A stretch of 35,553 nucleotides of DNA from Acidobacteriaceae bacterium (GTDB lineage Bacteria; Acidobacteriota; Terriglobia; Terriglobales; Acidobacteriaceae). Position numbers and translations under genes: made by a program. Location: assembly GCA_025352065.1 (NCBI GenBank), contig JANXUC010000099.1, positions 1 to 35,553 on the forward strand, written 5' to 3'. Below are positions 11,194 to 20,773 of this stretch, in pieces. The notes beneath the pieces are model-generated. The model saw only the letters and a list, made by a program, of their open reading frames with translations. It searched no databases and was not told the DNA's origin. Positions within the stretch are counted from its first letter, which is position 1, and each line of letters starts with the position of its first letter.

Positions 11194-12309
11194 ATGTCGA
11201 CGACCCAAATCCCGCCACGCGATCCTTCGGCCCCGCCGCCGAAACCCACGCCTCGATCCTCCGGAACCGAACTCTACGACCCCAACCACTGGGAGGATGC
11301 CTACCGGAATTCGGAGGTTTTTGACCCGCCCAAGCTCCTGATGGAAATGCAGGACGAGCTTTCCAAGTCGCGGCGTCGCGAAGCATTCTGGATCTCGGTT
11401 GCGGCGCATGTGATATTTTTCGCGGTTTTTTGGAACTCCGACAAATTTATCCGCTTCTTCCCAACCAACCACACATTGGTAAAGGCACCCAATTGGATGA
11501 AGCAGGAAGACGCGACGTTCATTGAGCTTCCAACAGACGCACAGAAGGTGACGAAGCGCCCTGATACCAAGATTATTTCCGACAAAGACCGCTTGGCCAC
11601 GCACAATATGCCAATCGATCCCAAGGAGCTGCAGAAGATCATTGAAAGCGCGCGGGCCGGAGCCCGGGGCGCCGCCGCACCCAGAGAAGCCGAACACCAG
11701 GGCCAAAACCAGGCAGTCGCCCAAAGCGCACCGGGCCCGAATCTGCCAAGCGCTCCGCATGAGGAGCATCTCCAACCACGTCAGGAGGTTGCGGAGATTA
11801 AGCCGTCACCCGATGGACCCAAAGTTTTGTTCGGGGGAACTGTTTCCGCAGGGACTGCGGTAGAACAAGCCGCCAGAGCGGCCGCAGCGAACCGCGGTGG
11901 AACCTACGGAGATGGCGGCGATAACGGCCTCTCTCACGGACGCCAGTCCAGCGCCGCCAGTGGGCTCGATATATTAAGCGACACGATGGGTGTCGACTTT
12001 GGCCCCTACCTGAAGCGCATAACCCATGACATCCAACGAAACTGGGAGAATCTGACTCCCGAGGTCGCTCGCCCGCCTCTTTATAAGAAAGGTATTCTTT
12101 CCATCGAATTCGTGATTTTGAAGGACGGAAAAGTAAGTGCGATGCGCCTTTCCACTACTTCAGGAGATGTAGCACTGGACCGCGCTGCCTGGGGCGGTAT
12201 AACGAACTCGAACCCGTTCCCTCCGCTTCCCAGCGACTTCCAGGGCGAAAACTTGATTCTTCGCTGCACGTTTTTCTACAACACGGACGGCAAGGATACC
12301 CTCCGGTAA
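11194..12309 (+). CDS. TonB-like energy transducer / TonB C-terminal domain protein
   Basis: A 371-residue inner-membrane protein. Residues 1-60 are cytoplasmic and proline-rich at the start. A single membrane span lies at about 64-80 (AFWISVAAHVIFFAVFW). A long periplasmic linker (90-260) is rich in Pro, Ala, Gly and Gln, and the last 110 residues form a TonB C-terminal domain (YLKRITHDIQRNWENL ... LSIEFVILKDGKVSAMRL). TonB proteins pass proton-motive force to outer-membrane receptors. This one has a much longer cytoplasmic part than E. coli TonB, so it is a TonB-family protein of unknown partner. It is followed by the peroxiredoxin-like gene after 21 bases. The 225-base gap upstream shows nothing clear. 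Confidence 0.85.
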   Translation: MSTTQIPPRDPSAPPPKPTPRSSGTELYDPNHWEDAYRNSEVFDPPKLLMEMQDELSKSRRREAFWISVAAHVIFFAVFWNSDKFIRFFPTNHTLVKAPNWMKQEDATFIELPTDAQKVTKRPDTKIISDKDRLATHNMPIDPKELQKIIESARAGARGAAAPREAEHQGQNQAVAQSAPGPNLPSAPHEEHLQPRQEVAEIKPSPDGPKVLFGGTVSAGTAVEQAARAAAANRGGTYGDGGDNGLSHGRQSSAASGLDILSDTMGVDFGPYLKRITHDIQRNWENLTPEVARPPLYKKGILSIEFVILKDGKVSAMRLSTTSGDVALDRAAWGGITNSNPFPPLPSDFQGENLILRCTFFYNTDGKDTLR

Positions 12310-12330
12310 AGCTCCGACGGAGATTAGCTC

Positions 12331-12864
12331 ATGCATGACACGCTAAGCGCGAAGCTGTCGCAGATCGTCCTACCCGACTCGGAAGGCCAGCAGATTCGGT
12401 TGGGTTCGTTGTGGGCAACCCAGCCCTGCGTGGTGGCTTTTCTTCGGCATTACGGTTGAATTTTCTGCCGTGAGCATGTCGCGCAGTTGCGCGAACGCGA
12501 AAAAGGATTCCAACTCAAGGGAGCAAGGATTGCCGCCATCAGCCTCGGCGACATGGCTTACGCTCGCATCTTCCGCGAAGACACCGGCATCACTTTTCCG
12601 TTGCTGATCGACGAAAACAAAATTGCTTACAACGCGGTTGGACTGCAGAATGGATCCATATTTCATGTGCTGCGCGCCGACAACCGCGCTGCCCGTATGC
12701 GAGCGAAGGCGGGCGGTCATGAGCAACACAAACTCGGCAGGAATCCGTTTCAGCTTGGAGGGAGCTTCATCTTTGCTCCCGGCAATGTGGATCTCTTTGC
12801 ACACCTGAGCGCAACGTTCGGAGACAATGCGCCGATGGCGAATTTGCTGGCGGCGTTGCCGTAA
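12331..12864 (+). CDS. Peroxiredoxin-like (AhpC/TSA_2, PRXL2-like) protein, candidate selenoprotein with in-frame TGA
   Basis: From ATG 12331 (GGAG eight bases upstream) one frame runs 177 codons to TAA 12864, broken only by TGA at 12457-12459. Around it the protein reads FLRHYG-[TGA]-IFCREHVAQLRE. In the AhpC/TSA_2 family this motif is normally RHFGCxxCRE, so TGA replaces the first redox Cys (residue 43) and the second, C46, is kept. Both sides are fully conserved in character: DSEGQQIRLGSL before; ITFPLLIDENKIAY, QLGGSFIFAPG and the C-terminal helix after. No other stop or frameshift occurs. A SECIS-like hairpin follows at 12479-12494. I infer a UxxC thiol-disulfide or peroxidase-type selenoprotein. 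The alternative is a nonsense mutation or base error from TGC/TGT. Selenocysteine machinery genes are not in the window, so this needs genome context. Confidence 0.82.
12469..12497 (+). promoter_or_regulatory. Candidate bacterial SECIS element
   Basis: TCGCGC (12479-12484) and GCGCGA (12489-12494) form a perfect 6-base stem around loop AGTT (12485-12488). CGT (12469-12471) can pair with ACG (12495-12497) across a one-sided 7-base bulge, extending the base. The apical loop begins 28 bases after the T of TGA 12457 and has G as its second base. Known bacterial SECIS rules (loop about 16-37 bases from UGA, small loop, G in its first two positions) are met. Its sequence is also coding, as expected for bacterial SECIS. 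Confidence 0.6.
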
Positions 12865-13039
12865 AGGGAGCAATGGCTGAACTGGAATACTTGGGAGGGG
12901 CATCGGCTTCAGCCGTCCCATTAGGGACCGGAAACATTCGGGCTTCAGATTCTGAGGCGGATCTTGTGGAGTTCGCAAAGAAACTCATGAAGAGGTCAAT
13001 CTTAGTCGTGCTGGGCCGACGTGATTTCGCGTTGATGGA

Positions 13040-19440: not shown

Positions 19441-19528
19441 TTGTCATTCTGAGCGCAGCGAAGAATCCCTTTGGGACCCAACAATCTTTGCGTCGACAGG
19501 GATTCTTCGCTGGCGCTCAGAATGACAA
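19441..19528. repeat. Dispersed inverted repeat with GTCATTCTGAGCG ends
   Basis: The left arm 19441-19470 (TTGTCATTCTGAGCGCAGCG...) and right arm 19498-19528 are complementary over about 30 bases with a single one-base insertion, around a 27-base centre. Variants recur at 21577-21616 and 23691-23789. The family resembles small palindromic elements scattered between genes in acidobacterial and other genomes. It could act as a bidirectional terminator after the Ada-AlkA gene, whose stop is 21 bases upstream. Confidence 0.75.
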
Positions 19529-19643
19529 AGTACGATTAGTATTTACGAAACAAGCTCTAGAGTATCCTTGCAAGAATCAACTTGGGCAACGTTCCTCTAC
19601 ACGAACGCACCCCTTCGGAGTTCGTCCGGATCAGGAGACATAC

Positions 19644-20773
19644 TTGGAAGTCGCCACACGTCCAAGCCAGCCGCTCGCATTCCTTATTGCGTTCTTAAGT
19701 CTTTTGCTTGCTGGCACGCTCGCCCACGCCACCGACCTGACCGGAAAGATCACCAACGCCCAAGGCGGAGAGCCTCTTGGCAAAGTTCATATAGCGGTAA
19801 TCGGAACACAGCTTGTGGCCGTTACCGCGAACGATGGCACGTTCCGCATCGCAAATGGCCCCGCCGGAGAGCAAGCGCTCCAGATCAGCGCGGTCGGCTA
19901 TCGCACAATTTCCGTGCCGTTCAAGTCCGCCGCTGCCGCGCCGGGGAACCCGAACGAAGTCACCGAATTTTCCATCAGTCTGCTTCCTGACAACTTTCAG
20001 CACACGGAAAAAGTCGTAGTCAACGCCGATATTTTCCAGTCTCCCGAGTGGCCCGCAGTCGGCGACACGACTCTAACTCCTCGCATTACATTGCCGCCGT
20101 CGAACAACGACTCGGCGAGCGCACGCGTCTTCGCATTGAGGCTTTTGACCGCCAAAACCAGACGCGCGCCGATATCTTCACCGCGCCGCTCCCTCCGGCG
20201 CCGTTCGATTTTACGCTCGTAGCACGTTCAGGCACCCTTAACCGGGACCATTCTCGAGGCTTGCAGGTCCTCCTGCAACGCCGTAGTGAAAATCGGCTTT
20301 CCGGCTGGATTGGATACACGTACACACAAGCGCGATCTCGCAGCTACCAGATAACTCTGCCGTCGCCAGTGCCGACCTTCGACTTTGACACGCCCTATGA
20401 ACCCACGGAACAAGACCAGCCCCACACCGCGAACGTCTTTGGCAGCTACCGCCTGACGCCCTCCGTCCGCCTGAGCGCCAAGGCTCTGTACGGGTCAGGT
20501 TTTCCAGTCACTAGCGGACTGCCTCTATCTGTCACCGGGGGACTACCGATCCCGCGCATTGGTCCCTACGAACGCATCGACCTGCGAGGAGAGAAATCCT
20601 GGACCTTCCAACGCTGGAAACTAAGCCTCTACACCGAACTGCTGAACGTTACAAACCACGACAACCGCAGACTGAGCGCCTTTTTCGTCGACCCAGTCAC
20701 GCATAAGACAATCGTAAACACAGGCCCCGGCCTCCCCTTCATCCCCACCGCAGGCCTAGGTTTCGATTTCTAA
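19644..20773 (+). pseudogene. TonB-dependent receptor remnant with internal deletion
   Basis: Two pieces in different frames. Piece 1 starts at TTG 19644 (AGGAGA about seven bases upstream). It has a signal peptide (FLIAFLSLLLAGTLAHA) and a carboxypeptidase regulatory-like domain (LTGKITNAQGGEPLGKVHI ... GEQALQISAVGYRTISVPF), then EKVVVNADIFQ, where a plug domain should follow. Near 20070-20086 the sequence jumps to another frame that reads HYIAAVEQRLGERTRLRIE and continues as the last 230 or so residues of an outer-membrane barrel, ending FIPTAGLGFDF with terminal Phe. The plug and most of the barrel are missing and the joint is out of frame. The deletion is inferred from family architecture. 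Whole receptors of this type run 700-1100 residues and import large substrates. A functional product is unlikely. Confidence 0.82.

Follow-up and report, generated by a model that had tools for sequence, protein, structure and literature searches.

The reading frame at positions 12331–12864 of the contig studied, from an Acidobacteriaceae bacterium, is very probably a genuine selenoprotein gene of the Acidobacteriota, in which the UGA codon at 12457–12459 is read as selenocysteine (Sec) by means of SelB and a hairpin lying within the frame, giving a PRXL2-like product with a UxxC motif. The whole stretch of DNA analysed, 35,553 nt in length, is called the window below. The reading of the TGA as Sec in a UxxC form, put forward in the preliminary description of this DNA, is strongly supported by the Sec genes of the host, by the TGA or Cys codons found in the same column in relatives, and by a covarying hairpin. 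The features concerned are the following:

11194–12309, forward strand: gene with a TonB_2 domain, 21 bases upstream, a neighbour only (domain match; not conserved)
12319–12322, forward strand: GGAG, a likely site of ribosome binding separated from the ATG by 8 nt (sequence)
12331–12864, forward strand: very probable selenoprotein gene, for a 177-residue AhpC-TSA_2 (PRXL2-like) protein with Sec43 and Cys46 (frame, homologues, motif column)
12457–12459, forward strand: TGA, very probably read as Sec, residue 43 of U-I-F-C (same column in 113 distinct loci)
12466–12468, forward strand: TGC, Cys46, presumed resolving residue of UxxC (sequence; in the alignment it matches the second motif Cys of human PGF synthase)
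12479–12494, forward strand: bacterial SECIS-type hairpin, 6-bp stem 12479–12484/12489–12494 and loop AGUU 12485–12488 (model fit, conservation, covariation)

Reading frame, motif codon and gene tree

The frame comprises 177 codons and a final TAA, and its sole internal stop is the TGA of codon 43, in the context LRHYG-U-IFCRE. The single continuous frame with one internal TGA, as first claimed, was confirmed on reading it and in the family sample, where the gene was detected in 15 of 150 genomes (E 1e-10 or better) and all 15 carriers had exactly one stop, a TGA, in the same alignment column. The start codon proposed upstream is likewise in place, preceded by a likely ribosome-binding site. 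Under translation table 11, which cuts these genes at the TGA, the only ORF of at least 100 aa in the frame of the gene begins with TTG at 12487 and encodes 125 aa; an antisense ORF of 202 aa overlaps the gene (12370–12978, minus strand; table 11).

The presence of this 125-aa ORF would suit a TGA acting as a true stop, with a 42-residue peptide followed by a separate C-terminal protein started at TTG 12487. However, this TTG sits within the hairpin, the Pfam match to AhpC-TSA crosses the TGA, the predicted fold is a single domain, and residue 43 aligns with the first motif Cys of the Cys homologues; division into two products is accordingly rated as very improbable.

In total, 122 loci were tabulated, corresponding to 113 distinct ones. 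The motif codon of 84 of these was TGA; 28 had a Cys codon (TGC or TGT), and one had GGA. Relatives thus share the TGA at this very codon or, where they belong to other lineages, have Cys. The 84 TGA loci were divided into 79 with UxxC, three with UxxU, one with UxxY and one with UxxG. The phylum scan gave a match in 81 of 396 genomes, the motif column being read in the loci that were fetched. From the scan of named genomes 80 loci were retained. The column table contains 79 of them, L078 being partial and lacking the motif. That scan employed two peptide patterns, one of which required Cys at the motif, and any bias is therefore towards Cys. Among the 50 closest loci (L028–L077), 44 came from records with acidobacterial titles, and the other six from Deltaproteobacteria (two), Planctomycetota, Acidimicrobiia and records named just bacterium (two).

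No TAA or TAG was found at the motif column in the segments examined of the 84 TGA loci, and no Trp in any of the 113 distinct loci. A changed genetic code that makes the TGA Trp or Gly, or simple readthrough of it, could be proposed from the Gly codon (GGA) of one relative, but 28 relatives have Cys at this column, none has Trp, genes for tRNA-Sec and SelB are present, and TGA terminates 5 of the 18 long ORFs of the window taken as genes. Such decoding is thus about as improbable as a true stop. The relative with GGA (L035) is a close one and keeps a complete hairpin, and the GGA is consequently regarded as a recent change or an error.

Further disruptions in relatives, considered in the preliminary description as evidence against a selenoprotein, were rare among the 84 TGA loci: a second TGA three codons on in the three UxxU loci, a TAG located 35 codons upstream of the motif in L126, and a frame break just after the motif, followed by one TGA, in L074. 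The three UxxU loci (L125, L127 and L128, all from Acidobacteriota) have their two TGAs 9 nt apart and one hairpin each, with spacings to its loop of 25 and 16 nt, both inside the range of bacterial SECIS elements. A class-wide search for more UxxU forms around genome G156 yielded a match in 9 of 38 genomes, with two TGAs in the same three. Two distant relatives from genomes of the same family (L022 and L023) have Sec, with Tyr or Gly replacing the resolving Cys; the hairpin of L023 is wholly different in sequence (CACCTG-GTC-CAGGTG) and lies in nearly the same place.

The part of the gene 3' of the TGA, described earlier as undamaged, shows purifying selection in all 11 comparisons made, with pN of 0.23–0.27 and pS of 0.67–0.89 beyond the hairpin; the part before the TGA behaves like the downstream part (pN 0.18–0.29, pS 0.48–0.82). 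Silent changes are near saturation, and for this reason the direction of pN/pS alone is meant.

A tree was built with 108 of the 113 rows, excluding L047, L061, L064, L074 and L134. The window gene belongs to a branch of 56 rows (support 100/99), mostly from Acidobacteriota. The Sec codon is present in 55 of these rows and a Gly codon in the remaining one, Cys being absent; it is as a clade of selenoproteins that this branch is added to those known. The Sec label changes at least nine times on the tree, or at least four times if well-supported branches only are trusted, indicating that Sec and Cys have been exchanged more than once, in a tree whose bootstrap is unsettled and whose long branches make the deep joins unsure.

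The conservation described above also bears on the reading of the TGA as a sequencing error or as the sign of a pseudogene, in which a Cys codon would have mutated recently to a stop. The codon is one base from TGC or TGT, and the GGA of L035 and the frame break of L074 indicate that members can decay; nevertheless, the same TGA occurs in 84 distinct loci, TAA and TAG being absent from the column, selection is purifying past the TGA, and the hairpin covaries, for which reasons this explanation is considered extremely improbable, the least probable of all. For the family as a whole it is refuted by the recurrence of the TGA in independent assemblies. The same stop, usually with an RNA hairpin after it, has been kept in dozens of related genes, and the gene is therefore taken as real even though its product is truncated under the plain code.

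Hairpin and selenocysteine machinery

The hairpin 3' of the TGA has the sequence UCGCGC-AGUU-GCGCGA, with 25 nt between the TGA and the loop. The bacterial SECIS model given in PMC13188914, as far as its text was available, has a loop of 3–9 nt, a stem of 4–16 bp, a spacing of 16–37 nt, a G within the first two positions of the loop and a minimum free energy of -7.5 or lower. The hairpin of the window gene agrees with this model, with a loop of 4 nt, a stem of 6 bp, G at loop position 2, a spacing of 25 nt and -10.2 kcal/mol. Considered alone, the window gene gave fold z-scores of -1.56 and -0.17, and 6% of its synonymous recodings reached an equal stem length; this single-sequence signal is weak, and the evidence for the hairpin is hence comparative.

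A stem of at least 4 bp at the fixed register was present in 68 of the 84 TGA genes versus 5 of the 28 Cys genes (Fisher P 3e-9), the expectation from synonymous recoding being 8.3 of the 84 TGA genes. The stem was absent at that register in 16 TGA genes, several of which have a shifted stem. Synonymous codon identity in 61 close genes was 0.78 over the hairpin (codons +6 to +12) versus 0.41 elsewhere. The codon over the end of the loop was TTG in 71 of the 84 TGA genes and in 2 of the 28 Cys genes, the TTG share of Leu codons in TGA genes being 15.5%.

Covariation was determined on alignment A3, which contains 83 of the 84 TGA loci (79 distinct sequences), since L074 was excluded on account of the frame break just after its motif. 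All seven pairs showed changes on both sides. Both-side changes amounted to 38 cells versus 10.2 in shuffles, and paired cells to 80.5% versus 71.6%, values of shuffle tests that are inflated by kinship. Real replacement of pairs was seen in the Chloroflexota form (GGCCC-AGUU-GGGCC) and in others.

The genome of the host is 98.5% complete. The Sec genes, whose search in the host had been advised with the first reading of the TGA, are all there above the cut-offs of their families: tRNA-Sec with 75.4 bits (cut-off 47; ARAGORN SeC, anticodon TCA), selA with 545.1 bits (cut-off 267.9), selB with 383.6 bits (cut-off 242.25) and selD with 368.6 bits (cut-off 125). The selD gene of the host (L025, contig C80 of G000) has an in-frame TGA of its own, which forms part of a UxxK motif and precedes a hairpin. 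A second tRNA-Sec match of the host over the cut-off (47.3 bits) was a tRNA-Ser according to ARAGORN. No match above the cut-off was obtained in the host genome for a Sec formate dehydrogenase, and seven matches had no internal stop. Among the control genomes, weak tRNA-Sec matches were obtained in 14 of 14, five of them above the cut-off and 3 of 14 at E 1e-9; selA was above the cut-off in 1 of 14, selB in 2 of 14 and selD in 2 of 14.

Of the 150 genomes sampled from the family, 81 had tRNA-Sec and 85 had selB above its cut-off; with 15 carriers, the gene is thus absent from most Sec-decoding relatives. The carriers had selB above the cut-off in 14 of 15 cases, tRNA-Sec in 11 of 15, and at least one of the two in 15 of 15. 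Four carriers (G001, G006, G059 and G073) had no tRNA-Sec at E 1e-9 under strict filters, all four with selB above the cut-off, and one (G124, 71% complete) had tRNA-Sec and no selB above the cut-off. Genomes with selB or tRNA-Sec numbered 93 of 150, a union that rests on 84 of the 85 selB-positive genomes, and all 15 carriers are inside this group (P = 0.0005, related genomes not being independent).

According to the mechanism proposed, SelB carrying Sec-tRNA-Sec would bind the hairpin at 12479–12494 inside the frame, and this binding would lead the ribosome to read the UGA at 12457–12459 as Sec.

Gene neighbourhood

The adjacent TonB-family gene had been presented in the preliminary description as an operon partner of the selenoprotein gene. 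Its TonB_2 domain, 21 bases upstream, was recovered, but the pairing is not conserved: by tblastn it was found only here, in 1 of 84 loci (81 of them with at least 1200 bases upstream), and the gene was rejected as a partner. Given that TonB sequences diverge and tblastn could miss some, a domain scan was added for ten of the 47 remaining ORFs lying close upstream, and no TonB domain was detected (0 of 10). No conserved neighbourhood was found among the flanking ORFs of the 84 loci, as none of the 14 largest groups spans more than seven loci; several of these groups occur within a single sub-branch only (L017, L018, L034, L048 and L077).

Two separate observations were made. A gene for a MerR-type regulator is placed directly upstream of a Chloroflexota Sec form (L092, 2046–2930). 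In the window, positions 19488–20773 contain two overlapping ORFs in different frames, which by eye have a carboxypeptidase-regulatory-like start and an outer-membrane receptor end; the sequence suggests a shortened or frameshifted TonB-dependent receptor.

Protein family and comparison with known systems

With Cys in place of Sec, the protein matched the Pfam families AhpC-TSA_2 (PF13911; 48.1 bits, gathering cut-off 27) and AhpC-TSA (47.6 bits, cut-off 26), the latter over residues 10–107 and thus spanning the TGA. The AlphaFold2 model obtained with alignment A1 (15 rows, Cys for Sec) had a pLDDT of 93.0 and a pTM of 0.90, in one domain. In this predicted model the protein has a thioredoxin fold in which residue 43 is located after strand 33–37 and just before helix 44–55, the placement known from PRXL2. 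The best solved match was human prostamide/PGF synthase (9usa), with a Z of 23.1, an rmsd of 1.5 over 158 residues and 25% identity; the two cysteines of its motif, which are mutated in 9usa, are Cys44 (aligned with U43) and Cys47 (aligned with C46). The motif T/SxxU, by which the classical Sec peroxiredoxin is defined in the available text of PMC1794560, is absent, His40 being three residues before Sec.

The window protein is most likely a UxxC thiol/peroxide oxidoreductase, to judge from the model, and its fold would make a hydroperoxide or other peroxide the most likely substrate. The product would be a thioredoxin-fold protein of 177 residues in which, as placed in the model with Cys for Sec, Sec43 immediately precedes the active-site helix and Cys46 follows after one turn. 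The selenolate of Sec43 would attack a peroxide or disulfide substrate, Cys46 would resolve Sec43 by forming a selenenylsulfide with it, and the enzyme would be recycled by a thioredoxin-like reductant. Protein disulfide exchange of the ResA/TlpA type, instead of peroxide reduction, is a less likely role that deserves some weight: UxxC resembles the CxxC of thioredoxin and ResA chains are among the high-ranking matches of both the sequence search and Foldseek, but the best match in both sequence and fold is PGF synthase, and the next rows of VIA-align are peroxiredoxins, of the Q/Bcp types. Prostamide H2 is an endoperoxide. Its reduction by PGF synthase is described in PMC3473315.

The name PRXL2 is taken here to designate the SelU family, including human prostamide/PGF synthase. 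In animals, Sec decoding uses an element in the 3'-UTR. The window protein shares with SelU/PRXL2 (human PGF synthase and invertebrate SelU3) the fold and the position of the active-site pair, and differs in being bacterial, in its 25% identity over the aligned part, and in having its hairpin inside the frame. SelU3, the animal branch of PGF synthase, has Sec forms in invertebrates according to the available part of PMC3473315.

SelL is reported as a Prx-like selenoprotein that occurs in fish, in invertebrates and in bacteria of marine origin (PMC2397514, PMC2398784, both from partial texts) and as having two Sec, two residues apart (PMC3316567, likewise). The comparison with SelL made in the preliminary description was upheld in part. 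The NCBIfam model NF040769, named SelL-related redox protein, is matched by 15 of 15 members of A1. On the other hand, SelL is UxxU and the window protein UxxC, with TGC at 12466–12468, the UxxU motif being found in three relatives; and with Cys for Sec the window protein reached 117.2 bits, below the cut-off of 120. When ten proteins were compared with NF040769, seven, including Sec and Cys forms, were above the cut-off and three (window, L022 and L023) below it.

A broader reading, rather unlikely although conceivable, is that of an Acidobacteriota PRXL2/SelL-like lineage in which Sec is the rule, one hairpin at a fixed place serves both UxxC and UxxU (spacings 25 and 16 nt), other members have Sec without a resolving Cys, and the bacterial root of animal SelU and SelL might be found. 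The wider family constitutes a natural series (UxxC, UxxU, UxxY, UxxG, CxxC) on which the benefit of selenium in the active site can be tested.

The AhpC/TSA selenoprotein of pfam13911/cd02970 has the same Pfam domain, AhpC-TSA_2, but its motif is UxxS, not UxxC, as stated in the accessible portions of two reviews (PMC13188914, PMC9312934). The 2006 survey (PMC1794560) counted four selenoproteins of three families in Acidobacteria, and the deep-Sep study (PMC12013277) three known selenoprotein genes, and none that was new, in Occallatibacter riparius, their names being absent from the available text of both. The family of the window gene may be among these three genes of Occallatibacter riparius. 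In the literature on selenoproteins of Acidobacteria or Acidobacteriota, to the extent of the texts available, no description of this clade as such was found.

By published descriptions alone, the bacterial Prx-like UxxC proteins (Prx-like 1, pfam00578; Prx-like 3, pfam08534; PF00578 thiol:disulfide oxidoreductase) have the same domain and motif as the window protein. Prx-like UxxC selenoproteins appear in ocean surveys (PMC1088965, PMC2398784), and a Prx-like PF00578 selenoprotein family with UxxC or UxxU in reviews (PMC13188914, PMC9312934), all as far as their available texts go. Since bacterial Prx-like UxxC selenoproteins are already known, the window gene is a well-supported addition to them, from a clade consisting mostly of Acidobacteriota.
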